Position numbers and translations under genes: made by a program
Assembly (NCBI RefSeq): GCF_011603255.1
Contig: NZ_JAANCM010000023.1
Coordinates: forward strand, 1-37,961
From: Ferranicluibacter rubi
Lineage (GTDB): Bacteria > Pseudomonadota > Alphaproteobacteria > Rhizobiales > Rhizobiaceae
Length of the DNA: 37,961 bases
Direction: 5' to 3'
In this document: positions 4,902 through 34,823 of the stretch, one piece after another
Layout: each line of letters begins with the position of its first letter
Numbering within the stretch: position 1 is the first letter of the stretch
The notes under the pieces: generated by a model
The model's database searches: none
Seen by the model: only the letters and a program-made list of their open reading frames with translations
What the model was told of the DNA's origin: nothing

Positions 4902-4913
4902 GGAATAGCCGCC

Positions 4914-22409: not shown

Positions 22410-22439
22410 TTGACAAAGGTGGCCATTGGCCACTATTAT
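22410..22439 (+). promoter_or_regulatory. ardC promoter with perfect palindromic operator
   Basis: TTGACA (22410-22415) and TATTAT (22434-22439) are 18 bp apart. The spacer is almost filled by the 15-bp palindrome GTGGCCATTGGCCAC (22419-22433). A bound repressor would block RNA polymerase. The same half-sites occur at 4194, 9661 and 26334. Confidence 0.8.
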
Positions 22440-22445: not shown

Positions 22446-22496
22446 GTTCCCAAGCGAAACGGAACGGAAATTCTAACCGAGAGCGGAGATTAGCAG
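22446..22496 (+). ncRNA. ardC 5' leader hairpin with the GCGAA loop
   Basis: GTTCC (22446-22450) and GGAAC (22461-22465) pair around CAAGCGAAAC. The loop is identical to that of the leaders at 27390, 28827 and 33303, while the stem sequence differs by compensating changes. The ribosome segment GCGGAGATTAGCAG follows. Confidence 0.65.
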
Positions 22497-23441
22497 ATGA
22501 CCAAGGCAATTAAAAACAACACTTTCGTTTCCCCTTATAAGCAGATCACAGACGCGATCCTCGCAGACCTCAAGGCTGGCGTAGCGTCGTGGGCGAGGCC
22601 GTGGAAGGTGGACGGCAAGGGCCAGAAGGTAGCTGTTACGAGCGGTTTCCCAATGAACTTTGCGACCCGCAAGCAGTATCGCGGCGCGAACATTTGGCTT
22701 CTTCTTGGAGCAGCACAGGCAAACGGTTTTACCCGCAACGCATGGGCCACGTTCAAGCAGATCGCCGCCATGGGTGGCACGGTTAAGAAGGGGAGCAAGG
22801 CCGAGCGCGTGTTTTTCATGAGCAAGATCGAGAAGACCCCGACAGGTGCCGAGGGCGAGAAGATCAACGAAAACGGCATGGCCGAGTTTTGGGTTCTCAA
22901 GGGCTATTCCGTTTTCAACCTCGACCAGTGCGAGAACATCGAGATCAAGGCGGAAGAACTGGCTATCGCGTCGAACCTTCCCGAGGACACGGCCGAACTC
23001 GTGGACGCTATCGCCCTCGACCTTCGCCATGGTGGCGACCAAGCTTTTTACTCCCCAAAGGGCGACTTTATCGCAATGCCGAAGCCCGAAGCTTTCGTTT
23101 CCCTCGACCACTACAAGGCGACCTTGTTTCACGAAATCGGCCACTGGACAGGCGCAGACAGCCGCTTGAAGCGCGAGTTTGGAAAGCGTTTCGGAGACAA
23201 GGCATATGCCGCCGAGGAATTGGTTGCCGAGTTGAGCGCCGCTTTCCTCGCCATGGAATACGGTATCGAGGCGAAGCTACAGCACGCCGAATATATCGGC
23301 CATTGGATCAAGCTTCTTGAGAACCACGAACAGGCGTTTTTCCGCGCCGCTTCCGAGGCTCAAAAGGTTCTCGACTTCATCCGCGAAAGGGCAGGGAGCG
23401 CAACCAGCGCCGAAGCCGAAGACATGAGGGAGGCGGCTTAG
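22497..23441 (+). CDS. ardC: ArdC antirestriction protein
   Basis: The product is 314 aa. The N-terminal ssDNA-binding domain (about 10-130; SPYKQITDAILADLKAGVAS then WARPW, NFATRKQYRGANIW, and TFKQI) is the ArdC N-domain. The C-terminal zincin domain has TLFHEIGHW (H212, E213, H216) and EELVAELSAAFLA with the downstream Glu. ArdC protects incoming DNA from type I/II restriction and is common near transfer regions. Its promoter carries a perfect palindromic operator and its leader has the shared GCGAA-loop hairpin, so expression is probably burst-like on entry. Its length is near that of ArdC of IncW plasmids. Confidence 0.92.
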   Translation: MTKAIKNNTFVSPYKQITDAILADLKAGVASWARPWKVDGKGQKVAVTSGFPMNFATRKQYRGANIWLLLGAAQANGFTRNAWATFKQIAAMGGTVKKGSKAERVFFMSKIEKTPTGAEGEKINENGMAEFWVLKGYSVFNLDQCENIEIKAEELAIASNLPEDTAELVDAIALDLRHGGDQAFYSPKGDFIAMPKPEAFVSLDHYKATLFHEIGHWTGADSRLKREFGKRFGDKAYAAEELVAELSAAFLAMEYGIEAKLQHAEYIGHWIKLLENHEQAFFRAASEAQKVLDFIRERAGSATSAEAEDMREAA

Positions 23442-23510
23442 GCCGCTTCCTAACCCCGATTTCCAGCCGCGCCGCAAGCGGCGGGAGGGTTCCGATTTCC
23501 CACCTCACCA

Positions 23511-23536
23511 GCCCGCCGCCCGCTCTACTCTCTAAA
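23511..23536 (+). repeat. Dispersed GC-rich repeat between ardC and the next gene
   Basis: GCCCGCCGCC is followed by CGCTCTACTCTCTAAA. It lies about 35 bp before the start of the 89-aa gene. Confidence 0.7.
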
Positions 23537-23570
23537 CCCTGAAATCGTATCGCATACAGGACACGCCGAC

Positions 23571-23840
23571 ATGACCAAGCCGACACTTTGCCGCCGCCAG
23601 ATCGCAGACCAGATTTCCGACCTTCGCCAGATGCGGGGAGCCTTGAACGACCTGATTTCCGCCGCTTGCGGGCTTATGTCCCAAGCACAGGCCGCGCAGG
23701 TTCCCGACCTTGTGCGCCTGGAATTGTTGGCCGCGCTTTCCCATGCCGAGAACGCCGACCAGATCGCGCAGGGGCTTATGCGCCAGCTTTACGACACGCC
23801 GACCCCGAGGGCCGCGAACGCGAACGAGGCGGCGGCTTAG
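23571..23840 (+). CDS. 89-aa helical hypothetical protein
   Basis: Predominantly helical (RRQIADQISDLRQMRGALND then LISAACGLMSQ and LVRLELLAALSHAENADQI), ending in an Ala/Asn-rich tail. It is the first gene of a run of seven small genes to 26085 with short gaps or overlaps, so one transcript is likely. No recognised family. Confidence 0.72.
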   Translation: MTKPTLCRRQIADQISDLRQMRGALNDLISAACGLMSQAQAAQVPDLVRLELLAALSHAENADQIAQGLMRQLYDTPTPRAANANEAAA

Positions 23841-23881
23841 GCCGTCGCAATCCCCCTTATAGAGGACAGGAGACTTCCCCG

Positions 23882-24334
23882 ATGACCTTTTTTGAAGCCC
23901 GCGCCGCCGATGTCGCACAGCTTGAAGCCGAACAGGCTTTTGCCCTTGCAGACGGACGCGCCGATTTCGCCGCTATCTATGCGGAGGCAATCGAGACGAC
24001 GGCCCGCCAGCTTATGACCTACTCGCCAGAGGCGGGCGAGGCTCACTTTCTCAATGCGGACGGCTGGACGGCCGCGACGATGGCCTTTGCCAAGGTTGCC
24101 GAGTTGCGGATTCAGGAGGCCGTAGAACAGGAGATCGTGGACACGTTCGAGCGTGGCGAGATCACCAAGCCGAACATTTTCGTTGGCATCCTTGAAGAAC
24201 TGCAGGAGGACGGCGAGGGAGCCTTTATCAACGTTCGCGGTTTTAAGATCACCGCCGAGGGCGACCGCCTAATCATGACAGCCGAGGACGGCGAACGCCG
24301 TTCCTTTCCTACCGACAACCTCGACACGGAATAG
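23882..24334 (+). CDS. 150-aa hypothetical protein
   Basis: AGGAGA lies eight bases before ATG 23882, which decides the start over an upstream Arg-rich shadow. The N-terminal two-thirds is helical (TFFEARAADVAQLEAEQAFA onwards). The C-terminal third is strand-rich (FINVRGFKITAEGDRLIMTA then EDGERRSF), like a small beta-barrel or hairpin. Second gene of the array unit. Family unknown. Confidence 0.76.
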   Translation: MTFFEARAADVAQLEAEQAFALADGRADFAAIYAEAIETTARQLMTYSPEAGEAHFLNADGWTAATMAFAKVAELRIQEAVEQEIVDTFERGEITKPNIFVGILEELQEDGEGAFINVRGFKITAEGDRLIMTAEDGERRSFPTDNLDTE

Positions 24335-24339
24335 CCCAG

Positions 24340-24720
24340 ATGACCCGCCGCCTTGCCCTTGCCGTCCTTGCGTCGCTTCTCCCTTCACTGGCTATCGCCA
24401 GCGAGACAGAGCGGAGCTTTGACGGCCGATTTACGACGAATTGCCCGAGTGCCGCGCACCAGTGCAGCTTGCGGATTTACGAGCGTGGCGACCTTGGAAA
24501 GACGGTTGCCGTCTTCTTGGTGCAGACCCGCGATGTTGCCGCCGACGTGGTTTGTGGACTGACGGTTCCAGTGTCGGCGCAGGGCGACGTTTTGATTTCC
24601 GATGATAAGACTTTTGTCGTCGGAATCGGACGGACGAGCGACGGCCTTTATGTTTCGGGCGTACCGTTCGCGGCATGTAAGACCGTCCTAAACGGCCACT
24701 ACATGACCATTGGAGACTAA
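24340..24720 (+). CDS. Exported 126-aa protein with four Cys
   Basis: Residues 1-20 (MTRRLALAVLASLLPSLAIA) are a signal peptide, with cleavage likely after AIA. The mature part has four Cys (about 35, 42, 72 and 111) that could form two disulfides in a small beta-rich domain. It follows the previous gene by 5 bp. Exported proteins encoded in the middle of an establishment-type array are unusual. Function unknown. Confidence 0.76.
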   Translation: MTRRLALAVLASLLPSLAIASETERSFDGRFTTNCPSAAHQCSLRIYERGDLGKTVAVFLVQTRDVAADVVCGLTVPVSAQGDVLISDDKTFVVGIGRTSDGLYVSGVPFAACKTVLNGHYMTIGD

Positions 24721-24724
24721 GCCC

Positions 24725-25000
24725 ATGGCTTTGCGCCTACTCGAATTGTCGTGGACCGAGGCCGAGGGTATTTTTACCCTTGCCGTCAGTTCTACGGTTC
24801 CTTTGTTGCAGTTCGAGCGCGGCGAGATCGCGGACTTGATCGAGCGGCACGGCTTCAAGCCGTTGTCGGCCGACCGCTGGACGGCTCCCGCAGACGATCC
24901 AAAGGCACCCCTGAAAATGTGGGGGGCTTTGAGCGCGACAGGCTACAGCCTGACAATGGACATGCGGACCTTGCCGCCGAGCCTTGAGGGCGTGGCATGA
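24725..25000 (+). CDS. Small paralogous protein 1 (DRWTAP family)
   Basis: The product is 91 aa. ATG 24725 is chosen over a TTG at 24710; GGAGACTAAGCCC lies before it. FERGEIADLIERHGFKP, DRWTAPADDPKAPLKMWGAL and TMDMRTLPPSLEG also occur, with changes, in the 99-aa product at 25238. A looser version (GGDRRTAPSS) is in the gene between. Stop and next start overlap as ATGA. The unit looks like two strands, a helix and two strands. No known function. Confidence 0.76.
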   Translation: MALRLLELSWTEAEGIFTLAVSSTVPLLQFERGEIADLIERHGFKPLSADRWTAPADDPKAPLKMWGALSATGYSLTMDMRTLPPSLEGVA

Positions 25001-25254
25001 AGACAATCGTTATCGAATGGCACTTTGACGGCCAGACCGCCTTTGCTCACTTCCCCGAGCCGTTCCCCATGGACCCGCAGGAATGGGAGGCGTTCGCGTC
25101 CGTCTTTGACGAACTCGGGTTTACCCCCGACCAGTCGGGCGGGGATCGCCGCACCGCTCCATCATCCGCCGCTACCCGCGAACGCCTCACGGCTGGCTTG
25201 AAAGCCCTTGGCTATGCCGTCGAAGAAAGGACCGCCAATGTTGAACACCGTTGA
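24997..25254 (+). CDS. Small paralogous protein 2 (divergent)
   Basis: The product is 85 aa. IEWHFDGQTAFAHFPEPFPM then EWEAFASVFDELGFTPDQSG and GGDRRTAPSS and LKALGYAVEERT keep the order of its two neighbours. The order is a strand, an acidic helix ending GF, D-R-x-TAP and a GY strand. The sequence is strongly diverged. Its start overlaps the previous stop (ATGA), and its end overlaps the next gene by 17 bp. Confidence 0.72.
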   Translation: MKTIVIEWHFDGQTAFAHFPEPFPMDPQEWEAFASVFDELGFTPDQSGGDRRTAPSSAATRERLTAGLKALGYAVEERTANVEHR

Positions 25255-25537
25255 AATTTCGTGGATCGAAGACGGCGGCGAATATACGCTTGTCGTCGGC
25301 TGGCATGAGGACATGCAGGAGTTCGAGCGCGAGGAAGTCGAGCGTATTCTCCATGTCCACGGCTTTGTTTCGCAGGGCAACGACCGCTGGACAGCCCCCG
25401 AAGACCCGACCGCCCCCTTGGAGGCTTGGGAGGAAATCGGCCGCTACGGTTACGCCGTTCAGATGGATTTGGAGACTTTGCCGCCAGCGATCGAGGCCAA
25501 GGTTTTGGCCGACCTCGAACGCCTACCCCTGATTTGA
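25238..25537 (+). CDS. Small paralogous protein 3 (DRWTAP family)
   Basis: The product is 99 aa. AAAGGA lies six bases before ATG 25238. EFEREEVERILHVHGFVSQG, DRWTAPEDPTAPLEAWEEIG and MDLETLPPAIEA match the product at 24725. A tail LADLERLPLI is unique. Together with its two neighbours it gives a tandem expansion. Functions unknown; such tandem copies could bind the same ligand or target with different specificities. Confidence 0.76.
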   Translation: MLNTVEISWIEDGGEYTLVVGWHEDMQEFEREEVERILHVHGFVSQGNDRWTAPEDPTAPLEAWEEIGRYGYAVQMDLETLPPAIEAKVLADLERLPLI

Positions 25538-25548
25538 GGGGTTGCTAA

Positions 25549-26085: not shown

Positions 26086-26170
26086 GCTTGACCGCCTTTC
26101 GGCCGACAAGCAGACTTGAATCGTCATGTCCGACTGCAGGACATGACCGCCTGTATCCACCCCCCTTAAA

Positions 26171-26204
26171 CCCATGTCCCTTTTGATCGAGGGCATGGGT
26201 TTTT
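26171..26204 (+). terminator. Intrinsic terminator of the 23571-26085 unit
   Basis: CCCATG and CATGGG arms, extended internally by CCCT and AGGG, are followed by TTTTT. Confidence 0.8.
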
Positions 26205-26236
26205 GCTTGTCCGTTTTCTCTGACGCTCGCGGCGCG

Positions 26237-26262
26237 AGAGAGTAGAGCGGCGGGCGGGGCGT
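26237..26262 (-). repeat. Dispersed GC-rich repeat, inverted near-consensus copy
   Basis: AGAGAGTAGAGCGG is followed by CGGGCGGGGCG, the reverse complement of the copies at 8551, 23511 and 31654. Confidence 0.7.
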
Positions 26263-26328
26263 TAGGATCGAGCCAAATAAGTTGACGAATTATTCAATCT
26301 TTTCCGTAACTTATCGTTCCATCGGCTA

Positions 26329-26358
26329 TTGACAAGGTGGCCGTTGGACACCCATTAT
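26329..26358 (+). promoter_or_regulatory. Promoter with GTGGCC operator upstream of the 140-aa gene
   Basis: TTGACA (26329-26334) and CATTAT are 18 bp apart. The spacer holds GTGGCCGTTGGACAC, a one-sided variant of the ardC palindrome. Confidence 0.7.
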
Positions 26359-26404
26359 ATAAGCAGTTCCGAGCCAATCGGACGCTTAGAAAAGGGGGAA
26401 TACC

Positions 26405-26827
26405 ATGGAACTAGAGGTTATTTGGCACCATCAGGGCCACCAGATTTCGTTTGATGTCGTCTATCAGGGCAAGCGTTGGGCCGACCACAACGCGACCGCC
26501 GAGGGGCTGAAATTCGCGGCCGACGTAAACGCCACAGCGCGGCGTTTCGGAGGCTTTTGCCGCATCAAGGCCAGCCAGCGTTTCACGACGACGCGCCCGC
26601 TACAGGGCGACGAACAGGCCCGCCTTATCGACGCTTTCCAGCGTGAGGGCTATACCGTCAAAGAGAACGCCCGAAACCCGCACAAGCCCGCCGAGGCATC
26701 CGCCGACTGGACGGCCGAGAAGAAGCCGCAGGAGACACGGAAGCCAGACCGCCGACCAATGCCGACCCCGAGCGGATCGCGCCAGAGGATCGCCGTTAAG
26801 GCTCCCGCGCTGGCCTATGGAATGTGA
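26405..26827 (+). CDS. 140-aa protein ending in the RPMPTPSG region
   Basis: The N-terminal domain (about 1-85) is strand- and helix-rich: ELEVIWHHQGHQISFDVVYQ, FAADVNATARRFGGFCRIK and QARLIDAFQREGYTV. It is followed by a basic, Pro-rich linker with RPMPTPSG at 117-124 and a hydrophobic end (VKAPALAYGM). It has its own operator-controlled promoter, and its stop overlaps the region of the next gene's ribosome site. The domain is not recognised. Confidence 0.76.
   Translation: MELEVIWHHQGHQISFDVVYQGKRWADHNATAEGLKFAADVNATARRFGGFCRIKASQRFTTTRPLQGDEQARLIDAFQREGYTVKENARNPHKPAEASADWTAEKKPQETRKPDRRPMPTPSGSRQRIAVKAPALAYGM
26753..26776 (+). other. RPMPTPSG peptide motif, copy 2
   Basis: Encodes residues 117-124 of the 140-aa protein; the next residues are Ser-Arg, as in copy 3. 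Confidence 0.75.
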
Positions 26828-26841
26828 GAGAGGGCGAACCG

Positions 26842-27195
26842 ATGACCAAAGACAAGAAGCACCAGTTCGACCGCCAGGACTACGGCCCCGAGGCCCGCAA
26901 AATCCTTGAGGGCTTAGAGCCAGCGAAGAAGCGGCCCGAGGTCTTTATAACTGGCGACGACATACCGAGGAAGCCAACCACCATTGACGACCTACCAGAG
27001 CCAGACCGCCAACAGGCCCGCGACTTCCTAGACGACGTGCGACGGACTGGACAGCGGCCCAAGACGGCTAAGGAAATCGCAATCGAGACCGCCGCCCGCG
27101 ATTTCCACGAACCCCGACCCATGCCGACCCCGAGCGGATCGAGGCCGACCAGATCGGCCGATGACCCGCCGACCAGCCCCAAGCCAAAACGTTGA
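26842..27195 (+). CDS. 117-aa disordered protein with RPMPTPSG
   Basis: ATG 26842 is chosen because GAGAGGG lies upstream; an earlier in-frame ATG at 26824 overlaps the previous stop. The protein is highly charged and Pro-rich. Segments such as DYGPEARKILEGLEPAKKRP and LPEPDRQQARDFLDDVRR are likely short helices. Residues 92-99 are RPMPTPSG, near the C-terminus. It is probably co-transcribed with the 140-aa gene. The two share only this motif. No known family. Confidence 0.74.
   Translation: MTKDKKHQFDRQDYGPEARKILEGLEPAKKRPEVFITGDDIPRKPTTIDDLPEPDRQQARDFLDDVRRTGQRPKTAKEIAIETAARDFHEPRPMPTPSGSRPTRSADDPPTSPKPKR
27115..27138 (+). other. RPMPTPSG peptide motif, copy 3
   Basis: Encodes residues 92-99 of the 117-aa protein, followed by Ser-Arg and a basic tail. 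Confidence 0.75.
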
Positions 27196-27205
27196 CACTG
27201 ACTAA

Positions 27206-27229
27206 CCCCGCCAACAAAGCGGGGTTTTT
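27206..27229 (+). terminator. Intrinsic terminator
   Basis: CCCCGC and GCGGGG arms with a seven-base loop are followed by TTTTT. Confidence 0.85.
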
Positions 27230-27313
27230 CTTTGCCTACAGAAAGCAAACAGAACCATTCCGGCAATAAAAAAACTTTGTTACCAAATCTAGCGTGTGCG
27301 TTGCTTTCCATTT

Positions 27314-27360
27314 TTGTCAATTTTTTAGTGCTGGACGCCGTTTATATTGAATGAGACTAT
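27314..27360 (+). promoter_or_regulatory. Shared upstream promoter block, copy a
   Basis: TTGTCAATTTTTTAG begins at 27314 and matches the start of the blocks at 28752, 31854 and 33227. TTTATATTG and GACTATATAG lie downstream as -10 candidates. This copy has diverged after the shared segment. Confidence 0.55.
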
Positions 27361-27367
27361 ATAGTTA

Positions 27368-27437
27368 CTGGATCGCAAGGGCGATCCAGCCGCCCAAGCG
27401 AAACGGCGGAAACCAGAGCAGAACAAGGAATTACACC
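27368..27437 (+). ncRNA. Structured leader of the 259-aa gene
   Basis: Hairpin I is CTGGATCGC (27368-27376) with GCGATCCAG (27381-27389). The last hairpin is CCGCC (27390-27394) with GGCGG (27405-27409) around CAAGCGAAAC. AGAGCAGAACAAGGAATTAC and ACC then lead to ATG. Hairpin I has a different sequence but the same form as in the 28805 and 33281 leaders. Confidence 0.75.
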
Positions 27438-28217
27438 ATGGAAAACGCAATCAACAACACCGCCAAGATCGACCTCGTAGCCCTCGCCGCCGAGGTAATC
27501 GCCAAGCTGACGGCCGTTCATGACGGCCTAGCCGACCTTGAAAAGGTCTCCCTCGAAATCGCGGAAGCGACTGACACCGCCTATCACAACCATGAGCGGG
27601 GAACAGATCGCCCCTTCTGCATGGTTAGCGGCGATTTCTGGCTTGCAAAGGCCATCCTTGACGGTGTGCAGGGTGTTCGCGAAAAGATCGTTCATCCTCG
27701 TTTTAGGTCTTCAGGCGCGATTGAAGCAATCACACAAAAGATCGCGGATCGCGAAGAGCAGTATGCCCGCGCAGAAGAGGACCGTATTCGCGAAGCCGAA
27801 ATGGCCGCACGTCAGGCCGTGGCAATGGCCCGCGAAGCAAACGCCGAAGCCGCCGAAAAGGCCGAGCGCATCGTTTCCGACTTCCTCAAGATCAGTGGCA
27901 CAACGAAAATGGTTGGCAAGGGTAGGTTCAAGCGCGGGGTTGCTACCGTCGTCTTCCTTTTCAACGGAAACGTCTACGAGGTGGAAAGCGATTTCGACAA
28001 AGCCACCCTCGAATTTTCGGGCGTAGACCACAGGAACGGCCGACAGGGCTACCTAGTCATTGATCGCCGCGAGTTGAAAGCGGTTCCCCTTTTCAAGCCC
28101 GAGATGACCGCCGAGGAAATCGGCAAGACGGCCCACGCGCTCGATTGCATCCGCGCCGCACTCCGCGAAGTGGCAGGACCAGTTGCCGCCCCCGCCGTCG
28201 AAGAAGTCGCCGCCTAA
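27438..28217 (+). CDS. 259-aa protein with central coiled coil
   Basis: ATG 27438 follows the structured leader and AAGGAATTACACC. Residues 1-90 are helical, about 105-155 form a charged Ala/Glu/Arg coiled coil (EEQYARAEEDRIREAEMAAR onwards). Residues 155-235 are strand-rich (GVATVVFLFNGNVYEVESDF then QGYLVIDRRELKAVPLF) and look like a small globular domain. The C-terminal tail is Ala/Val/Pro-rich. It is followed by the 86-aa gene in the same unit. Unknown function. Confidence 0.8.
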   Translation: MENAINNTAKIDLVALAAEVIAKLTAVHDGLADLEKVSLEIAEATDTAYHNHERGTDRPFCMVSGDFWLAKAILDGVQGVREKIVHPRFRSSGAIEAITQKIADREEQYARAEEDRIREAEMAARQAVAMAREANAEAAEKAERIVSDFLKISGTTKMVGKGRFKRGVATVVFLFNGNVYEVESDFDKATLEFSGVDHRNGRQGYLVIDRRELKAVPLFKPEMTAEEIGKTAHALDCIRAALREVAGPVAAPAVEEVAA

Positions 28218-28271
28218 GCCAACAGGGGAAGGGCGCAACCCTTCCCCACCTTTCCCGCAGGAGACACCCCC

Positions 28272-28532
28272 ATGACCACCGCTATAATCGGCGTTCGCTG
28301 GACAGACACAAACCGAGTTGTCGGCACCTTCCCCCTGACCGCCCCGAACCTTTGCGAAGCTTGCAAGCTGGCAGTGCGCCACTATTCGGAAATCTACATC
28401 GAGCGCGACGGCGTGAAGATCAGGACGCTAACGAGGCCCGAGCGCGGAGCCTTGATCGACTTGAGCCGCCGTCGCGAAATGGCCTATGCGATCCGCGACG
28501 AGATCGAACCCGAGACGGCCAATAGTCATTGA
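28272..28532 (+). CDS. 86-aa hypothetical protein
   Basis: AGGAGA lies seven bases before ATG 28272. IIGVRWTDTNRVVGTFPLTA then LCEACKLAVRHYSEIYIERD and IRTLTRPERGALIDLSRRRE suggest a strand, a Cys-x2-Cys helix start and an extended strand. The Cys pair is isolated. It is second gene of the 27438 unit and is closed by the terminator at 28558. Confidence 0.74.
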   Translation: MTTAIIGVRWTDTNRVVGTFPLTAPNLCEACKLAVRHYSEIYIERDGVKIRTLTRPERGALIDLSRRREMAYAIRDEIEPETANSH

Positions 28533-28557
28533 CCTGGTGTTAGCCTGGTGCATCGAA

Positions 28558-28581
28558 CCCCGCCCCCACAGCGGGGTTTTT
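28558..28581 (+). terminator. Intrinsic terminator
   Basis: CCCCGC and GCGGGG arms are followed by TTTTT. It is nearly identical to the terminator at 31728-31751. Confidence 0.85.
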
Positions 28582-28588
28582 CGTTGCT

Positions 28589-28653
28589 CGCGTTTTTTGA
28601 CCGCATCGGCCGATAGCGCGCGTTTTTTGACGGTAGCACACGTTTTTTGACGG
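28589..28653. repeat. Three iteron-like direct repeats (CGTTTTTTGAC type)
   Basis: CGCGTTTTTTGACCG at 28589, CGCGTTTTTTGACGG at 28619 and CACGTTTTTTGACGG at 28639 lie in the same orientation, 30 and 20 bp apart. Confidence 0.65.
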
Positions 28654-28751
28654 CGGATCGGCCGACGATCGAGGCCCGCCAAGCCCTTTATAGAGGAAAA
28701 ATTCGTTACCAAATGGCGCCAGTCCGGACGCTCTTATTTCCACTCTTGCAG

Positions 28752-28802
28752 TGTCAATTTTTTAGTTATTGCGGCCAATCGGAACGGCCAGCATACTATA
28801 AT
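28752..28802 (+). promoter_or_regulatory. Shared upstream promoter block, copy b
   Basis: TGTCAATTTTTTAG then TTATTGCGGCC precede TATAAT at 28797-28802. Copies c and d share both the left block and the TATAAT. Confidence 0.6.
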
Positions 28803-28804
28803 TA

Positions 28805-28874
28805 CTAAGTCGGCAGAACGACTTAGCCGCCCAAGCGAAACGGCGGACACCAGAGCAGAAAAAGGAATTGCACC
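28805..28874 (+). ncRNA. Structured leader of the 90-aa gene
   Basis: CTAAGTCG (28805-28812) pairs with CGACTTAG (28819-28826). CCGCC (28827-28831) pairs with GGCGG (28842-28846) around CAAGCGAAAC. AAAGGAATTGCACC then leads to ATG. Confidence 0.78.
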
Positions 28875-29147
28875 ATGAACAAAGCCCGCAGAAACACCCT
28901 CTCCAAGGTTCAGACCCGCCTTGAAGAACTGGCCGCACTCGCCAGCGAAATCCGCGAACTGATCGAAGCCGCCCGCGACGAAGAACAGGAATATCGGGAC
29001 AACATGCCCGAGAGCTTCGCAGACGGCGAGAAGGGCGAAGCCGCCGACAACGCGATTGCCGCGATGGAAGAAGCCATGTCGGTTCTCGAAACCATCGAGG
29101 GCGAAGCCACCGAGGCCAGCGAACACCTCGACACCGCCGCCGCCTAA
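28875..29147 (+). CDS. 90-aa coiled-coil acidic protein
   Basis: Nearly all helical and acidic: LSKVQTRLEELAALASEIRE, LIEAARDEEQEYRDNMPES and AADNAIAAMEEAMSVLETIE. It probably folds as a helical hairpin that dimerises. It begins a unit (28875 to 30659) whose later genes each have a structured leader of their own. Function unknown. Small acidic helical proteins in such arrays sometimes mimic DNA or inhibit host proteins, but that is a guess. Confidence 0.75.
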   Translation: MNKARRNTLSKVQTRLEELAALASEIRELIEAARDEEQEYRDNMPESFADGEKGEAADNAIAAMEEAMSVLETIEGEATEASEHLDTAAA

Positions 29148-29194
29148 GCGGCCAAGGGAAGGGCCACCGAGCGCCCTTCCCGCCCGAGGCTTCA

Positions 29195-29290
29195 TAGCAT
29201 CGGCCGACAGGTGAACGGCCGATATTGGGGAGCCTCCCCGCCCCGCCCGAGCGAAACGGCGGAAACCAGAGAGAGCAGGAGTTAGCCAGC
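29195..29290 (+). ncRNA. Structured leader of the 185-aa gene (internal type)
   Basis: Hairpin I: ATCGGCCG (29199-29206) with CGGCCGAT (29216-29223). Hairpin II: GGGGA with TCCCC. Hairpin III: CCGCC (29243-29247) with GGCGG (29258-29262) around CGAGCGAAAC. GAGCAGGAGTTAGCCAGC leads to ATG. It lies between genes of one unit without an evident promoter, so it acts as RNA. Confidence 0.75.
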
Positions 29291-29848
29291 ATGTCCACCA
29301 CACACGAAACCATCGCCCTTATCGACGGCAGAACCAAGGCAAACGGCCTTGCTTACACCGCCCGCGTCATCCGCGAGGGCAGGCCCGCAGGGGATCGCTT
29401 TATGCAATATTTCGACAACGGCCAAGTTCTCGCAGACGTAATCAGGGCGGGCCTTTACCGCATTGCGAAGGAAGACGAACAGGTCGCGGAAAACATCTTC
29501 AAGTACCTTTGCGACGAGGATGTTTTGGCTTCTGTTGTTGCCGTTGAAAAGGCCGAGAAGACGGCCGAGGGAATGACCCAGAAACCGAGAATGGAAGTTC
29601 TCGACCTCATGGCTCAATGGGCGGCGGACTCTTGGGATTACGACCTTGAAGACACCGAGGGTTTCGAGTTCCACCGCAACGAATTGCGAGAATACCGAAT
29701 CCGCCTTGAGCAGGAGCGCGAGGCAGAGGAAGCCGCCCGAATACTGGCTTTCGCAAAATCCATCGGTTGCGCGAACAACCTCCCCCTTGCCCGCAAGCTG
29801 GACAGCTTCGAAAAGCGTTTGAACGCTGGATTTTCCACCCGCCGTTGA
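29291..29848 (+). CDS. 185-aa hypothetical protein
   Basis: Helical throughout (LIDGRTKANGLAYTARVIRE, QVLADVIRAGLYRIAKEDEQ, LDLMAQWAADSWDYDLEDTE). The charged C-terminal helix is EYRIRLEQEREAEEAARIL. No metal or nucleotide motif was seen. It follows a structured leader and is followed without a terminator by another. Family not recognised. Confidence 0.77.
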   Translation: MSTTHETIALIDGRTKANGLAYTARVIREGRPAGDRFMQYFDNGQVLADVIRAGLYRIAKEDEQVAENIFKYLCDEDVLASVVAVEKAEKTAEGMTQKPRMEVLDLMAQWAADSWDYDLEDTEGFEFHRNELREYRIRLEQEREAEEAARILAFAKSIGCANNLPLARKLDSFEKRLNAGFSTRR

Positions 29849-29854
29849 TGCCTC

Positions 29855-29950
29855 ATTCTATCGGCCGTGACCCCACGGCCGATATTGGGAAGCATCCCAC
29901 CGCCGATTGCGAACGGCGACCACCCACCGAGAGCCACAGGAATTAGACCA
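29855..29950 (+). ncRNA. Structured leader of the 153-aa gene (internal type)
   Basis: Hairpin I: TATCGGCCG (29859-29867) with CGGCCGATA (29876-29884). Hairpin II: GGG-AAGCAT-CCC. Hairpin III: CGCCG (29901-29905) with CGGCG (29914-29918) around ATTGCGAA. CACAGGAATTAGACC leads to ATG. The last stem differs from the usual CCGCC/GGCGG. Confidence 0.72.
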
Positions 29951-30412
29951 ATGCCGACGAAGACCAAGACACCGCTTAACCCCGCCTTTCACCCGCCGAC
30001 CATGCCACCCGAGGGCATTCCAGTGAAGAACACATGGAAAGTCGGCGTGTATCTCAAGGAAGTCCACGGCAAGGCCGTCAGATGGACGGCCAAGGCCGAG
30101 GACATAACCGCCGCCGCCAAGAGGGCCGAGGACCAGCTTAGAAGAAAGCCGATGGACCCCGCCCACTACGTCGGAGCCGTCGCGGAGTTCGTCACTGCAG
30201 GGCCGACCGCGCCGACCTACACCCAAGCCGTCGCAGGGACGAGGGCGACCCTAATTCGCGGGCCGAATGGCTGGCGGCTCATCAAGGCGCAGACCGTGAA
30301 TAGGTTCGCCCGCGACCGTTCGAATGTCGAACTATTGCTTACTTTCGAGCAGATGGAAGCCATGGCCGCGACGACCCTTTATAGGGCAACAGGAGAACGG
30401 GCCGATGCTTGA
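29951..30412 (+). CDS. 153-aa hypothetical protein
   Basis: After a Pro/Lys-rich head (about 1-25) comes a folded part: KNTWKVGVYLKEVHGKAVRW, ITAAAKRAEDQLRRKPMD, GTRATLIRGPNGWRLIKAQ and ELLLTFEQMEAMAATT. It overlaps the next gene by 8 bp, suggesting translational coupling. No family recognised. Confidence 0.76.
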   Translation: MPTKTKTPLNPAFHPPTMPPEGIPVKNTWKVGVYLKEVHGKAVRWTAKAEDITAAAKRAEDQLRRKPMDPAHYVGAVAEFVTAGPTAPTYTQAVAGTRATLIRGPNGWRLIKAQTVNRFARDRSNVELLLTFEQMEAMAATTLYRATGERADA

Positions 30413-30659
30413 GGATCACACAGCGCGGGCTTGCCGCTTGCTTCCGATGATAGCCGACGAGTTGGCCGACTTCATCCCCAAGATCGTCCTTCACACGACG
30501 AGGGACACCGACGACAAAGCTTTCGTCGGCCTAGTCCTAACCGCCCTCGCGACCCGCTCCCTTCTGTCCTACGAATGGCAGGAGCAAGGCAGGGCCGAGG
30601 CCGTCAAGCGCGGTTTTATCTACCATGCAGGCCGTCACTACTACGTCTCGCCAGCCTGA
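30405..30659 (+). CDS. 84-aa hypothetical protein
   Basis: Helical (MLEDHTARACRLLPMIADEL then LADFIPKIVLHTTRDTDDKA and LVLTALATRSLLSYEWQEQG), ending in an aromatic strand (GRHYYVSPA). GGAGAACGGGCCG is close upstream, inside the end of the previous gene. It closes the 28875 unit before a terminator. Confidence 0.73.
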   Translation: MLEDHTARACRLLPMIADELADFIPKIVLHTTRDTDDKAFVGLVLTALATRSLLSYEWQEQGRAEAVKRGFIYHAGRHYYVSPA

Positions 30660-30685
30660 AATTCAGCGATCGACGAGGACGATCA

Positions 30686-30707
30686 GCCCGCCGCCGGCGG
30701 GCTTTTT
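30686..30707 (+). terminator. Intrinsic terminator
   Basis: GCCCGCC and GGCGGGC arms with a three-base loop are followed by TTTTT. Confidence 0.85.
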
Positions 30708-30882
30708 GTTGACCAGAGATTAGAGGCCGGGCGGCATGGAAAATTCGTTACCGTCGTCAGCGTTGGAGCAAGGATTTCCCGCAAGTCTTTGACGGCCTTT
30801 GATTTTCAGGCAATCGGCGTTTTGTGCCTTGCGTCCTTTGATAGCAGAATCGGATTGCAACCTATGGAGAGGGGAAAAACCG

Positions 30883-31653
30883 ATGATGCAGAACAAGCCG
30901 AAAATGACAGATGCCGTCCGCTATTTCGACGCGCCACAGCTAGACCGTGACCTTGAGGCCAGACTACAGGCCGAGTTCGAGGCCAAGAGGACGGCCAGCC
31001 GTTTCCTCGCAGAAGGTCCGAACGGCAACCGTCCGACACTGGCAGACATTCCGACCGTCGCGCCGATCCGTGTTCCAGTTTCCGAGGTTTCCGATATTAC
31101 CTCGCAGATACTTCGCAAGAATGCCGACGCTTGCGGCACGGCCATAGCGCAAGGATTGAGGCCCTATAATTTCGAGGTAAGGAAGGGCGATCCGACCGTT
31201 TCAACGCCGTTCGAGAAGGCCCCGCACCTGAAGGAAACCGAGGCTTGCCGTATCAAGATCGTCAACCCCGACGGCTCCCATGGCCTTATCGTCGTGAAGG
31301 TTACGAACTTCAATAAGGGCCATGCCGTCGTGACACCTAGCGGCTTGCGCTACGACGGAGTGAAACCCGAATTGATGACGAAGAACGAGCGGCCCGCTTG
31401 TCGTGTTCTCGGTTTCCACGCCGACGAGAACGGCAAAATCCTGTCCGTCGATCCAGCGTTGACCAATAAGGGCGTTGCCTGGACGACTGGTAGCGTCAAG
31501 GAGATCGTGGACAAGGTGGCGCGATCCGCCATCAACGCTCAGAAGCAACAGGCCGTGACGGCAAAGAAGGATAGCCGACCCATGCCGACCCCGAGCGGAC
31601 GTTTCAGCACCCAGCCCGCCGACCGCAAGCCGTCGTCAGGGATGAAGTTCTAA
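30883..31653 (+). CDS. 256-aa protein ending in the RPMPTPSG region
   Basis: ATG 30883 has GAGAGGGGAAAAACCG upstream; the frame extends to 30799 without such a site. The product has a helical N-terminus (VRYFDAPQLDRDLEARLQAE) and a central strand-rich domain (CRIKIVNPDGSHGLIVVKVT, FNKGHAVVTPSGLRYDGV). A helical segment follows (VKEIVDKVARSAINAQKQQA) and then a basic tail with RPMPTPSG at 232-239 and SSGMKF at the end. It is monocistronic between terminators, preceded by an AAAATTCGTTACC block but no structured leader. Unknown family. Confidence 0.78.
   Translation: MMQNKPKMTDAVRYFDAPQLDRDLEARLQAEFEAKRTASRFLAEGPNGNRPTLADIPTVAPIRVPVSEVSDITSQILRKNADACGTAIAQGLRPYNFEVRKGDPTVSTPFEKAPHLKETEACRIKIVNPDGSHGLIVVKVTNFNKGHAVVTPSGLRYDGVKPELMTKNERPACRVLGFHADENGKILSVDPALTNKGVAWTTGSVKEIVDKVARSAINAQKQQAVTAKKDSRPMPTPSGRFSTQPADRKPSSGMKF
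31576..31599 (+). other. RPMPTPSG peptide motif, copy 4
   Basis: Encodes residues 232-239 of the 256-aa protein, in a basic C-terminal tail. Confidence 0.75.
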
Positions 31654-31680
31654 GCCCGCCCCGCTCTACTCTCTGAATCC
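31654..31680 (+). repeat. Dispersed GC-rich repeat after the 256-aa gene
   Basis: GCCCGCCCCG is followed by CTCTACTCTCTGAAT. It begins right after the stop codon. Confidence 0.7.
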
Positions 31681-31727
31681 AGATCGTCGGCCGCATGGCC
31701 TCCCGCCAATGGCCGACCGATAGAGAA

Positions 31728-31751
31728 CCCCGCCCCCACAGCGGGGTTTTT
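31728..31751 (+). terminator. Intrinsic terminator
   Basis: CCCCGC and GCGGGG arms are followed by TTTTT. With its flanks it is nearly identical to 28558-28581. Confidence 0.85.
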
Positions 31752-31853
31752 CTTTGTCTTCCCGCCGACGATCGAGGCCGCGGAACTGCAAAAATTCGTT
31801 GACCTATCGAGAGCCAGGGCGGGCCATTCCTTCCGGTCTTGTCGTGTCAATTT

Positions 31854-31895
31854 TCTAGTTGTTGCGGCCGATCAGAACGGCCCGCATCCTATAAT
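31854..31895 (+). promoter_or_regulatory. Shared upstream promoter block, copy c
   Basis: GTGTCAATTTTCTAG then TTGTTGCGGCC precede TATAAT at 31890-31895. Confidence 0.6.
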
Positions 31896-31897
31896 TA

Positions 31898-31968
31898 CTA
31901 AGTCGATGGCGACTTAGCGGGAGCCGCGAAACACTCCCGACCCACCGAGAGAGCAGGAGTTAACCAGC
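31898..31968 (+). ncRNA. Structured leader of the 144-aa gene, with altered last stem
   Basis: CTAAGTCG (31898-31905) pairs with CGACTTAG (31910-31917). CGGGAG (31918-31923) pairs with CTCCCG (31934-31939) around CCGCGAAACA. The loop motif is kept while every stem pair differs from the usual CCGCC/GGCGG. GAGCAGGAGTTAACCAGC leads to ATG. Confidence 0.75.
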
Positions 31969-32403
31969 ATGGCCCGAGCCAAGAAATCCACGAAGACGAC
32001 CGCCGCGAAAACCACTATCCAGAAGACGGCCGACCGTCTCAGGGGCGCGGTTCATGACCACCTCGACATATCCGCTCACATCAAGCCCGAGGCCCGAACC
32101 GCAACCAAGGCCAAGACGGTAGGTTGCGATATTGAGATTTCGGCCGAGAAGGCCCGCCGACTGGCTACCGCCGTGAGCCTTTACAAGACTGCAGAGAGCG
32201 GGAGCCGAGCAACCAAGTATCACCCGCAGATGAGGGTAACGCCTAGCCCCGAGGCCGTCAGGATCGCCAAGGCAATCAAGGCCGCGATGCCCGCCCACTA
32301 CGTCGCGGAATCTACCTTGGATGTCGTCGCCATCTCCCGCCGCCAGACCAGCGACGAACCCCGCATGATGCAACATTCGGTAATGCCCTACGTCGGCAGA
32401 TGA
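31969..32403 (+). CDS. 144-aa basic hypothetical protein
   Basis: The N-terminus is Lys/Thr/Ala-rich (ARAKKSTKTTAAKTTIQKTA), as in many nucleic-acid-binding tails. A folded part follows: VGCDIEISAEKARRLATAVS and VRIAKAIKAAMPAHYVAEST. The end is Arg/Met-rich. It begins a unit with the 187-aa gene. No family recognised; a DNA- or RNA-binding role would fit the composition. Confidence 0.75.
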   Translation: MARAKKSTKTTAAKTTIQKTADRLRGAVHDHLDISAHIKPEARTATKAKTVGCDIEISAEKARRLATAVSLYKTAESGSRATKYHPQMRVTPSPEAVRIAKAIKAAMPAHYVAESTLDVVAISRRQTSDEPRMMQHSVMPYVGR

Positions 32404-32420
32404 TCCGCCGTTGATGCCGC

Positions 32421-32527
32421 ATTCTATCCCGCCGTCATCGAGCGGCGGGATATTGGGCGGCACCCCATAGACCCAGCCACCCCCGCCCAGCGAAGCGGCG
32501 GAAACCAGAGAGCACGAGAATTAGCAC
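32421..32527 (+). ncRNA. Structured leader of the 187-aa gene (internal type)
   Basis: Hairpin I: TATCCCGCCG (32425-32434) with CGGCGGGATA (32443-32452). Hairpin II: GGG-CGGCA-CCC. Hairpin III: CCGCC (32483-32487) with GGCGG (32497-32501) around CAGCGAAGC. GAGCACGAGAATTAGCAC leads to ATG. Hairpin I is identical to that at 33998. Confidence 0.75.
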
Positions 32528-33091
32528 ATGGACGACCACTATAATAACCGAGGTTCGCACGAACCAGATTTGGCGGCGCTGGCCGCAGAGATCGCCAATA
32601 ACAGGGCAGTCATGACGGCCCTTGCCAGCCTTGAGTTCGACCCCGAGCGGATCGAGGCCGACACGCCTATTATCGTAGACGAGGCGGGCATGACGGACTT
32701 TGATTTCGAGGACGACCGAGACGGCTTCCCCGCCGACGAATGGAAGGTGTCACCCTTCACCGACGAACTGGAAAAAGCCCGCCAGATGATCGGCCCTCTA
32801 TGCCGACAGATGGAAGGGATCGAAGATCGGCGCGTGAGGATCGCCCGCGACCTCGCAGAAGTCTATGCCGCCCTTCAAGGTGTTATCGCCAGTGTCGAAA
32901 CGACAGCCGACCAAGTGGCCGATTTCCCCGACGAGACGATGGCGAAGCTTGACGCGCTGGAAAACGTGCGCCGCGCCATATGGCAATTCAAGCGGGCGGT
33001 GGATTCCGATGCCTTGAGCGATACCATCGCCCAAGCGTGGCTTGCAGACTTGAGCCTGACGGCCGCCGCGCCCGGGTTTCTTAGAAAATAG
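32528..33091 (+). CDS. 187-aa acidic helical protein
   Basis: Residues 12-40 and 78-175 are helical (DLAALAAEIANNRAVMTALA, DELEKARQMIGPLCRQMEGI, LAEVYAALQGVIASVETTAD). The middle is a very acidic loop (DEAGMTDFDFEDDRDGFPAD). A long coiled-coil-like C-terminal half suggests oligomerisation or partner binding. It ends before the terminator at 33122. Function unknown. A degenerate inverted dispersed repeat overlaps its last codons (33080-33101). Confidence 0.77.
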   Translation: MDDHYNNRGSHEPDLAALAAEIANNRAVMTALASLEFDPERIEADTPIIVDEAGMTDFDFEDDRDGFPADEWKVSPFTDELEKARQMIGPLCRQMEGIEDRRVRIARDLAEVYAALQGVIASVETTADQVADFPDETMAKLDALENVRRAIWQFKRAVDSDALSDTIAQAWLADLSLTAAAPGFLRK

Positions 33092-33121
33092 AGCGGGGGC
33101 GAACCGCCGACCGATGACAGA

Positions 33122-33145
33122 AGCCCGCCGACCGTGCGGGCTTTT
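33122..33145 (+). terminator. Intrinsic terminator
   Basis: GCCCGC and GCGGGC arms with a seven-base loop are followed by TTTTT. Confidence 0.85.
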
Positions 33146-33226
33146 TCTTGTCAACAGAATGTCAGTATAAAACTAAATTAGTTGACTACCGTAGATATTC
33201 CCGGCGTGACTACTTCCGTTTTTGAA

Positions 33227-33278
33227 GTGTCAATTTTTTAGTTGTTGCGGCCCGCAAATATCGGTGTCAATCTATAAT
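33227..33278 (+). promoter_or_regulatory. Shared upstream promoter block, copy d
   Basis: GTGTCAATTTTTTAG then TTGTTGCGGCC precede TATAAT at 33273-33278. Confidence 0.6.
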
Positions 33279-33280
33279 TA

Positions 33281-33348
33281 CTAAGTCGGCAGAACGACTT
33301 AGCCGCCCAAGCGAAACGGCGAAACCAGAGCCAACAAGGAAAATGCAG
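33281..33348 (+). ncRNA. Structured leader of the 100-aa gene
   Basis: CTAAGTCG (33281-33288) pairs with CGACTTAG (33295-33302). CCGCC (33303-33307) faces GGCG (33318-33321) around CAAGCGAAAC, one pair shorter than other copies. CAAGGAAAATGCAG leads to ATG 33349. Confidence 0.75.
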
Positions 33349-33651
33349 ATGAACGAGATCACCGAAAAAGCCGCCGCCGCCTACCTCACGTTCCAGGCCC
33401 ACGCGCCCGAGGGCTACCTAGCCGACGCGATCAGCGAGGCCGTCAGGGGCGAGAGGACCGAAATCGAATTTTGGCTCCAGATGGACGAGGATTCGAGCGA
33501 CGAGGAAGACGCTTTCGAGTTCGGAGACGTGGACAGCGAAGACATGCGCCACGCCGTCGTCAGGGCCACGGTAGGCAAGACCCTCAAGCGCATTCAGGCC
33601 GCTTCCGAGCCGTCCTATGACGCGACTTATGCGGGCTACCTAGCCGCCTAA
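33349..33651 (+). CDS. 100-aa acidic hypothetical protein
   Basis: ATG 33349 is preferred over 33343 because AAGGA is properly spaced from it. The protein is acidic (MDEDSSDEEDAFEFGDVDSE in the middle) with helices on each side (AAAAYLTFQAHAPEGYLADA and RHAVVRATVGKTLKRIQAAS). Strongly acidic small proteins of this kind can mimic DNA, but no anti-restriction family is recognised. It shares a unit with the next two genes. Confidence 0.75.
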   Translation: MNEITEKAAAAYLTFQAHAPEGYLADAISEAVRGERTEIEFWLQMDEDSSDEEDAFEFGDVDSEDMRHAVVRATVGKTLKRIQAASEPSYDATYAGYLAA

Positions 33652-33664
33652 CCCGAGATCGAGC

Positions 33665-33681
33665 GGGCGGCTTTGCCGCCC
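33665..33681 (+). other. Intergenic hairpin before the 81-aa gene
   Basis: GGGCGGC and GCCGCCC arms with a TTT loop lie between two genes of one unit. No T-run follows, so it may be an internal processing or stability element. Confidence 0.5.
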
Positions 33682-33735
33682 CTCACCTTCCCGACGACCC
33701 GAACCGACAGATCAACGAGAGCAGGAATTAGCACC

Positions 33736-33981
33736 ATGAACACCGAAATCCAGAAAGCCGCCCGCCAGATCGGACCCGCCTTTGAAGCCTATAAAGCCGC
33801 CGTCGAACGGATGAGCGACCTTTGCGACACGCTTTCATGCGCGTTCGAAATGGACACGCCGGAATTTCAGTCGCTGTCCGAGGACTGCCAGAGGTTCGCC
33901 CTCGTGATCCGAGGCAACAACCTTCACGACTACGACGACATAGCCGCCAAGGCCATGACCGCCGCGCCGATCGAGGCTTGA
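33736..33981 (+). CDS. 81-aa helical hypothetical protein
   Basis: GAGAGCAGGAATTAGCACC, the leader-type ribosome segment, lies before ATG 33736, though without the full hairpin set. The protein is helical with two Cys (NTEIQKAARQIGPAFEAYKA, DLCDTLSCAFEMDTPEFQSL, EDCQRFALVIRGNNLHDYDD). No family recognised. Confidence 0.74.
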   Translation: MNTEIQKAARQIGPAFEAYKAAVERMSDLCDTLSCAFEMDTPEFQSLSEDCQRFALVIRGNNLHDYDDIAAKAMTAAPIEA

Positions 33982-33993
33982 ACCTGATGCTTC

Positions 33994-34082
33994 ATTCTAT
34001 CCCGCCGTCATCGAGCGGCGGGATATTGGGAAGCACCCCCGCCAATGCGAACGGCGGAAACCAGAGAGCAGGAGAATTAGCA
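33994..34082 (+). ncRNA. Structured leader of the 243-aa gene (internal type)
   Basis: Hairpin I: TATCCCGCCG (33998-34007) with CGGCGGGATA (34016-34025). Hairpin II: GGG-AAGCA-CCC. Hairpin III: CCGCC (34039-34043) with GGCGG (34053-34057) around AATGCGAAC. GAGCAGGAGAATTAGCA leads to ATG. Confidence 0.75.
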
Positions 34083-34814: not shown

Positions 34815-34823
34815 GCGGGCCAG

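Follow-up and report, generated by a model that had tools for sequence, protein, structure and literature searches.

The 37,961-nucleotide stretch analysed here (hereafter the window) is contig NZ_JAANCM010000023.1 of Ferranicluibacter rubi (assembly GCF_011603255.1), a plasmid on which nine genes are preceded by a short leader ending in a hairpin with a GCGAA loop. This leader array is real, non-random and plasmid-specific. The reading put forward, to which we give about an even chance, is that the leaders make up the RNA portion of a modular expression cassette serving a regulon of small accessory plasmid genes. With ardC in the set, these genes probably serve establishment (anti-defence). 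The cassette array is part of a wider habit of related plasmids.

The last hairpin of each leader, hairpin III, ends 25-31 nt 5' of the ATG and is followed by a Shine-Dalgarno (SD) box, AGCAGGARTTAGC and variants as judged by eye. The GCGAA words stand at 22454, 27398, 28835, 29251, 29909, 31926, 32490, 33311 and 34047. With genes designated by their first coordinate, the nine copies, all recovered by the strict scan described below, are:

22446-22465, + strand: ardC leader, GTTCC-CAAGCGAAAC-GGAAC (also from sequence)
27390-27409, + strand: gene 27438
28827-28846, + strand: gene 28875
29243-29262, + strand: gene 29291
29900-29919, + strand: gene 29951, outer pair lost (also from pair count)
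31918-31939, + strand: gene 31969, CGGGAG-CCGCGAAACA-CTCCCG
32483-32501, + strand: gene 32528, absent from the minimum-energy fold
33303-33322, + strand: gene 33349, outer pair lost, absent from the minimum-energy fold
34039-34057, + strand: gene 34083

The scan required a Watson-Crick stem of at least 4 pairs, a loop of 8-10 nt containing GCGAA, an SD-like triplet and an ATG 20-33 nt past the stem. It returned nine places on the + strand and none on the - strand, against a mean of 0.26 per plasmid (maximum 4) in 100 dinucleotide shuffles, under a definition drawn up after the copies had been seen. The initial annotation had described a structured 5' leader reused by unrelated genes, and all nine of its hairpins lie where it had placed them. 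The SD box occurs alone at 14972, and before one gene it follows another hairpin:

33717-33735, + strand: gene 33736, shared SD box (GAGAGCAGGAATTAGCACC) without a GCGAA hairpin, with a GGGCGGC-TTT-GCCGCCC hairpin upstream

Stem letters of hairpin III are the same or nearly so in seven of the nine copies. Pairs were counted by script on hand-registered stems (MAFFT left 31969 unaligned), a cell being one pair position in one copy. In all, 43 of 45 cells are paired and each of the five pairs has changed on both sides. When whole 3' arms were permuted among sequences, the observed pairing was reached in 32 of 2000 trials. The concerted changes proposed earlier for this stem stand for GTTCC/GGAAC (ardC) and CGGGAG/CTCCCG (31969) but not for CGCCG/CGGCG (29951), which is the common CCGCC/GGCG(A) stem minus its outer pair and not an independent change.

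A second element, hairpin I, is found in two classes, A behind a repeated promoter and B between genes. The copies, from fold and pair count, are:

27368-27389, + strand: class A, gene 27438, CTGGATCGC-AAGG-GCGATCCAG
28805-28826, + strand: class A, gene 28875, CTAAGTCG/CGACTTAG
31898-31917, + strand: class A, gene 31969, 4-nt loop
33281-33302, + strand: class A, gene 33349
29199-29223, + strand: class B (intercistronic), gene 29291
29859-29884, + strand: class B, gene 29951
32425-32452, + strand: class B, gene 32528
33998-34025, + strand: class B, gene 34083

Class B hairpin I begins 51, 10, 21 and 16 nt past the previous stop codon (genes 29291, 29951, 32528 and 34083, respectively) and usually has a small GGG/CCC hairpin behind it, with hairpin III and the SD box coming next. 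This small hairpin, noted earlier for some of the leaders, proved to be confined to class B and is not in the minimum-energy fold of 32528. Leader length is about 50-105 nt.

Hairpin I covaries, as had been claimed, in both classes. The four class A copies show two stem types, with three of eight pairs changed on both sides and 32 of 32 cells paired; the covariation score, over three distinct sequences, was equalled in 16 of 500 shuffles. Permutation of whole arms gave as much pairing in 525 of 2000 trials, three of the four copies being alike. Class B likewise comprises two stem types (32/32 cells paired, a second pair type in four of eight pairs), and exchanging arms between the two types leaves only 8 of 16 cells paired. 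Given the few sequences and close paralogues, the paired-stem evidence is good but not overwhelming.

For seven of the nine leaders, folding is better than in 198 or more of 200 shuffles (z -3.96, -3.23, -5.43, -2.67, -3.27, -3.13 and -2.82). The whole gaps containing the eight leaders after ardC give z values of -4.63, -4.02, -1.43, -5.67, -2.13, -3.45, -1.44 and -5.06, and those before 26405, 28272 and 33736, which hold other hairpins, -3.53, -3.46 and -1.83. The gaps before 23571, 23882, 30883 and 34977 are no better folded than shuffles (0.08, 0.08, 1.06 and -0.47). The hairpin at the start of gene 26405 is small and different, with a GCCAA loop. That of gene 28272 is:

28225-28247, + strand: intercistronic hairpin GGGGAAGGG-CGCAA-CCCTTCCCC, of other sequence in a like position (z -3.17 and -3.46)

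Long stems, terminators included, number 7.58 per kb in intergenic and 2.21 in coding parts of the window, and an intergenic excess is found over five plasmids. When read on the coding strand, single mismatches in the gap stems of five plasmids, one of them (L005) from outside the backbone family, comprised 11 G-T and four A-C; the corresponding counts for coding sequence were 10 and 23 (Fisher p 0.011; stems of at least 7 Watson-Crick pairs, 20 terminator-like stems left out). This bias leans, weakly, towards sense RNA as the folding molecule.

Five of the nine copies directly follow a promoter-like -10 box, and the other four are intercistronic. The earlier argument that copies inside operons speak against a promoter role therefore holds for only those four. 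Repeat analysis identified, in front of four of the leaders, a promoter unit of 75 nt that recurs at 28738, 31831 and 33214 and, in diverged form, at 27315. Its last bases are TATAATTACTAAGTCG (TATAGTTACTGGATCG in the diverged version), after which hairpin I and hairpin III follow without a break. Since a terminator repeat lies 77-166 nt upstream of each of these promoters, the repeating module consists of terminator, promoter, hairpins and SD box:

27203-27234, + strand: terminator repeat 5' of class A promoter 1 (repeat D5)
27315-27365, + strand: class A promoter copy 1, diverged, TGTCAATTTTTTAGT ... TATAGT (repeat family D9)
28555-28586, + strand: terminator repeat 5' of class A promoter 2 (repeat D5)
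28738-28812, + strand: class A promoter repeat copy 2, TATAAT at 28797-28802 (repeat D1)
31725-31756, + strand: terminator repeat 5' of class A promoter 3 (repeat D5)
31831-31905, + strand: class A promoter repeat copy 3 (repeat D1)
33120-33151, + strand: terminator repeat 5' of class A promoter 4, 69% identical (repeat D5)
33214-33288, + strand: class A promoter repeat copy 4 (repeat D1)
22410-22439, + strand: ardC promoter, TTGACA, 18-nt spacer with the palindrome GTGGCCATTGGCCAC, TATTAT (sequence, operator scan)

At ardC, hairpin III starts at the seventh base past the -10 box. Gene 26405 has a promoter similar to that of ardC, with a similar palindrome, and the operator-like sequence GGTGGCCNNNGGCCACC is present at both with one mismatch each. 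A scan for it with at most 3 mismatches found five places where mononucleotide shuffles lead one to expect 3.55, a count not clearly above expectation. Shared promoters, four repeated and preceded by terminators together with that of ardC, can explain coordination of these genes more simply at the level of transcription, with no need for an RNA factor.

The class A promoters at 28752-28803, 31845-31896 and 33228-33279 also have AATTTTTTAG and CTATAATT arms flanking a GC-rich inner part. Paired with each other, these arms can enclose the -10 box in a single long, imperfect hairpin, which is partly visible in the DNA folds of the 28875 and 33349 copies.

The reuse of a structured leader is borne out, and architectures of the same kind recur on three related plasmids. 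Relatives were sought through the helicase-like protein encoded 3' of the array, which has matches in 30 plasmid records, all below 60% identity, and in two of 394 family genomes at E 1e-100, one being its own. It is 45-48% identical in pNYY1_6 (Methylobacterium radiotolerans) and pAt2 (Agrobacterium tumefaciens), both of which follow the plan of the window: relaxase, coupling protein, helicase and a one-strand array of small, mostly nameless genes. The pNYY1_6 array includes an ArdC homologue (38% identical). Its promoter TATTGACT..TATTTA, with a palindrome TAGGC..GCCTA in the spacer, is present in five copies, of which four lead on to GTGTCGGC or a variant of it. A second hairpin, ATCGGTGTC..GACACCGAT, is found in four gaps, once behind a promoter copy. 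In pAt2, three of five promoter copies have a leader hairpin (GGCAAG/CTTGCC, GTCAAG/CTTGAC and GATAAG/CTTATC) and a fourth, by eye, GTCAAG/CTTGAT; two of six pairs have changed on both sides over the three sequences, and the covariation score was matched in 32 of 500 shuffles. Plasmid pAt12D13c likewise carries its promoter five times. Its leader hairpins include GGGAGCG/CGCTCTC and AGAGGC/GCCTC, and five of its gaps contain an intercistronic hairpin, GGGCGGC-AGGAGGA-GCCGCCC. Over four copies of the latter 26 of 28 cells are paired, the fifth (GGGGC..GCCCC) being excluded from the count as it is in another register. The loop of this repeated hairpin is SD-like (AGGAGGA or GGGAGG) in the gaps at 10341, 10907 and 7481 of that locus (L036). 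The two Agrobacterium plasmids have like promoters (CGCCGCCGACAGCAATCAT) and different leader hairpins.

Cassettes with hairpins unlike those of the window are thus found in three of the five relatives judged, a count that leaves out L034, where repeats are present, and L053. This is the strongest argument that architecture, and not sequence, is kept. The locus L053, from a family genome with a helicase 39% identical, was considered as a fourth relative and rejected: of its two hairpin and SD-like copies (2512-2563 and 4874-4925), one has no start codon after it and the other a possible GTG.

The leader sequence itself was recovered only from its own plasmid. No Rfam family matched above its curated threshold in the window or in four related loci, in agreement with the initial annotation, and the best sub-threshold match near a leader, L2-Alphaproteobacteria (18.3 against 37.8 bits, E 0.85), is at chance level. 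A widespread RNA family was considered and set aside: the pattern AGCGAAACGGCGGAAACCAGAG, with at most 3 mismatches, was found at 29 places in 26 of 296 family genomes besides its own, against 16 for a reversed control; one of these places has 2 mismatches and the others 3, and no genome but its own has more than two places. The search proposed earlier was carried out in part, with a covariance model, R1, built from seven copies (ardC and 31969 held out), and it detected no such array outside the plasmid. Across 13 sources (including L037, used solely here), the best match besides its own seven was one of 18.8 bits inside a pAt2 recombinase gene. Among 120 relatives at E 0.01 there were seven single weak matches (23-30 bits) in seven of them, and a strictly filtered search of 397 order-level genomes (E 5e-4) recovered its own genome alone (1/397). 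R1 scores the two held-out copies at only 12 bits; it is therefore mainly a sequence model that would miss distant leaders. An exact 19-mer had no match in viral contigs, and no description of such leaders on alphaproteobacterial plasmids was found in the open-licence literature.

How the cassette may work can be outlined as follows. Five copies would begin at a promoter, either the repeated one or that of ardC with its palindrome between -35 and -10, and this is where regulation would most likely be exerted, through a plasmid repressor that would be missing from a cell the DNA has just entered. In the mRNA, the hairpins would form the 5' end, or a new end after cleavage between genes, and might shield the downstream coding segment from 5'-end-dependent decay. 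Each gene would in this way become its own well-expressed unit, and the products would be made fast and abundantly on entry and later shut down. Hairpins at or near a 5' end hinder decay from that end, and intercistronic hairpins set apart segments that decay separately, as in ompA, papA and puf. The proposal resembles the 5' stem-loops of ompA and papA and the intercistronic hairpin of Rhodobacter puf in that a hairpin alters decay of the adjoining segment; those are, as far as is known, single natural cases, whereas the window has a cassette reused before many unrelated genes. Another possibility, that the hairpins insulate the ribosome site, was examined and rejected. The SD linker is unstructured on its own, and the unpaired probability of positions -20 to -1 is 0.61 in the native leaders and 0.62 with the hairpin block shuffled (partition function), removal likewise having no effect. 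As the folds show no opening of the ribosome site, the role remaining to the RNA is that of shaping ends.

Several observations weigh against this proposal. The case is built from sequence, folds and comparison throughout, which must itself be counted against it. At the promoters, class A copies have no recognisable -35 box, and no repressor was found among the 39 open reading frames (ORFs) scanned with Pfam, which gave sub-threshold hints only (e.g. PF06971, E 0.002, at 2076-2873). Since RNA normally starts 6-8 nt past the -10 box, class A hairpin I would have its outer 3-4 pairs upstream of that start; part of the covariation there may have no effect on RNA and need a DNA-level cause or another start. 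All both-sided changes in hairpin III come from two of nine sequences, ardC (GTTCC/GGAAC) and 31969 (GGGAG/CTCCC), and both of its non-standard cells are C-A on the coding strand, opposite to folding as sense RNA. The G-T excess is small (binomial alone p 0.12; 6-bp stems, 14 and 7, Fisher p 0.09). The ardC (z 0.74) and 29291 (z -0.81) leaders fall short of the folding level reached by the other seven, the last hairpin is missing from the minimum-energy folds of 32528 and 33349, and folding gives no sign that the hairpins free the ribosome site. A role in decay gives no reason for a constant GCGAA, which recent duplication might provide. Among other arrays, z is below -2 in 3 of 14 gaps against 0 of 20 coding segments in pAt2, in 5 of 11 against 3 of 16 in pNYY1_6 and in 1 of 8 against 2 of 15 in L007; as this last case shows, intergenic structure is not stronger than coding in every array. 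Finally, the related loci L033 and L035 have no 13-base word in at least 3 copies.

The constant loop could instead be the target of a plasmid or host RNA-binding protein or small RNA that sets translation of the whole array, a reading we regard as unlikely. Its main support is the retention of GCGAA (also the search word) in all nine loops though two stems have been replaced. It would also account for a hairpin standing 25-31 nt from the ATG, just outside the ribosome footprint, and for the intercistronic copies, which a promoter cannot explain. However, no RNA-binding domain scored above cut-off among the 39 ORFs scanned, most of them orphans, different loops are found in the leader hairpins of pAt2, pAt12D13c and pNYY1_6, and with seven of nine stems the same or nearly so the identity of the loop may reflect recent descent.

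It is slightly less likely again that the inverted repeats act as DNA, either as repressor operators at the promoters or as Frpo-like hairpins in the single-stranded incoming DNA, which would supply a promoter ahead of second-strand synthesis. Class A hairpin I does overlap the expected transcription start, and palindromes lie upstream of the -10 box in 28875, 31969, ardC and 26405 and in the pAt2 and pNYY1_6 promoters. The array genes face the presumed oriT side, judging from gene layout, an orientation in which they would be transcribed from the transferred strand. When six promoters were folded as DNA on both strands, the -10 box was partly paired in at least one strand for 26405, 27438, 28875 and 33349; it was unpaired on both for ardC and 31969, and no stem held a complete -35 hexamer. 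Moreover, four copies are intercistronic with no promoter box, hairpin III lies inside the transcribed leader, class A loops of 4 and 6 nt would be hard to reconcile with a dimer site of fixed spacing, and gap mismatches lean to G-T on the coding strand.

That the leaders are duplicated passengers or points of gene-swap recombination with no present regulatory role is very unlikely: several copies are nearly identical over 50-75 nt and most genes behind them have no family, but changed stems are still paired (43/45, 32/32 and 32/32 cells), position and strand are fixed, and a like architecture with other hairpin sequences is found on three other plasmids.

The proposed cassette has partial counterparts in several known systems. 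In the passages of PMC8708921 devoted to them, EGeRS1 and EGeRS2 of the pLS20/p576 family are repeated, plasmid-specific sequences upstream of ardC and several variable-gene operons in one plasmid part. As described there, EGeRS1 (420-750 bp) lies immediately upstream of the ribosome binding site, is rich in inverted repeats, has no detectable promoter and blocks read-through, and EGeRS2 contains strong promoters together with sites for a repressor, each related plasmid using one or the other; fast expression on entry followed by shut-down is reported for p576 and presumed for pLS20 (PMC8708921). Like EGeRS1, the window leaders are repeated, in nine copies, upstream of ardC and other operons. 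Unlike it (400-750 bp, no sigma-A-type promoter), they are short and, in five of nine cases, stand behind a promoter-like box; unlike the Bacillus EGeRS, four are inside operons. The likeness is one of genetic logic. Where EGeRS2 combines a strong promoter with operators for a common repressor, the window has promoter boxes and palindromes, an operator scan of 5 against 3.55 expected and no repressor gene found among the scanned ORFs.

The SAS/ESAS elements of cluster K mycobacteriophages are, in the passages that describe them, a short conserved box of unclear function next to many start codons (PMC3203893, PMC12699233). About half have an inverted repeat just upstream, with a variable spacer, and the consensus of the repeat differs between genomes (PMC3203893). 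The window leaders likewise have an inverted repeat upstream of a box, hairpin III ending 25-31 nt before the ATG in all nine. However, the SAS consensus is GGGATAGGAGCCC and the window box, by eye, AGCAGGARTTAGC and variants; ESAS arms, in actinobacterial phages, are described as keeping a 17-bp consensus, whereas two of nine last stems in the window have been replaced with the loop kept. No promoter link appears in the passages on SAS/ESAS, whereas five of nine window leaders follow a promoter-like site. In the R388 ArdK regulon, the passages on it describe promoters, including PardC, under one repressor, and an expression overshoot measured after conjugation that includes ardC (PMC3937220). 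Repeated leader hairpins are not described in those passages; the window has leader hairpins and no repressor found in scanned ORFs. Anti-defence islands of plasmid leading regions with Frpo promoters offer a likeness in biological setting, as far as the relevant passages go (PMC11541004). An Frpo-type promoter has its -35 and its -10 within a stem formed when the transferred strand folds, whereas the ardC -10 is unpaired and class A promoters have no recognisable -35 and a -10 that is partly paired in some folds. As EGeRS1 length and promoter status and the SAS consensus are not matched, and the Frpo and EGeRS2 comparisons are mixed, the leaders are assigned to none of these systems.

The replicon itself can be described in outline. 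Its 127 terminal bases are identical at both contig ends (1-127 and 37835-37961) and the contig does not extend beyond the window, which is therefore a complete circular plasmid of 37,834 bp, in a host genome of 5.47 Mb in 42 contigs. Its main backbone and array landmarks are:

4914-9521, + strand: MOBF relaxase with TrwC domain (Pfam), the class to which the relaxase of R388 also belongs
10625-12961: coupling protein (Pfam)
22497-23441, + strand: ardC, ArdcN and zincin-like metallopeptidase domains (Pfam)
34977-35552: serine resolvase, the sole recombinase found by Pfam
35911-37961, + strand: conserved helicase-like gene 3' of the array, spanning the contig ends, the backbone marker used for finding relatives

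No listed ORF other than those of the relaxase, coupling protein and helicase exceeds 470 aa, too short for a complete type IV secretion ATPase, and the plasmid is for this reason probably mobilisable rather than self-transmissible. It also carries an ATP-dependent DNA ligase gene (17491-18555, - strand), and pAt2 likewise has a non-homologous end-joining ligase gene.

Positions 26300-34900 have no near DNA match among 72,556 plasmids, and in domain and family scans most genes behind the leaders have no family. The searches also brought up no closely related plasmid, with an array 60-95% identical. Neither 34083 nor 29291 had a protein match in plasmids; for 34083 and 27438 none was confirmed in viral contigs, and for 27438 there was none in six other genomes of the genus. 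By contrast, the 90-aa protein of 28875-29147 matches phrog_4068 (E 2.8e-21), and its homologue is a small gene in 29 plasmid records, including the PromA-type plasmid pIPO2T, where it too opens an array of small unnamed genes. No GCGAA hairpin precedes it in the six sharing plasmids examined (L004-L009, of which L008 and L009 served for this check alone).

A motif, RPMPTPSG, is common to four otherwise different proteins (619-1308, near 1195; 26405-26827; 26842-27195; 30883-31653), at about 40 residues or less from the C-terminus in each; as a common tail it might direct sorting or secretion. Between two operons, GTTTTTTGAC is present in three direct copies (28592, 28622 and 28642) within 60 bp, possibly the iterons of a replication origin.

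A bolder, decidedly speculative proposal would be that each plasmid of this backbone family has a private leader signature, copied before its establishment-regulon genes and recognised by a dedicated factor of that plasmid. The signature would be replaced wholesale between related plasmids with the architecture kept, so that co-resident plasmids would not cross-regulate each other. The like architecture with different hairpins on four plasmids, the window and three relatives, would in any event constitute a natural experiment for separating effects of structure from those of sequence. If the cassette reading is true, repeated leaders would provide a handle for spotting establishment and anti-defence regulons, mostly of orphan genes, on alphaproteobacterial plasmids, and genes sharing the cassette of a plasmid would be likely to act together at entry.

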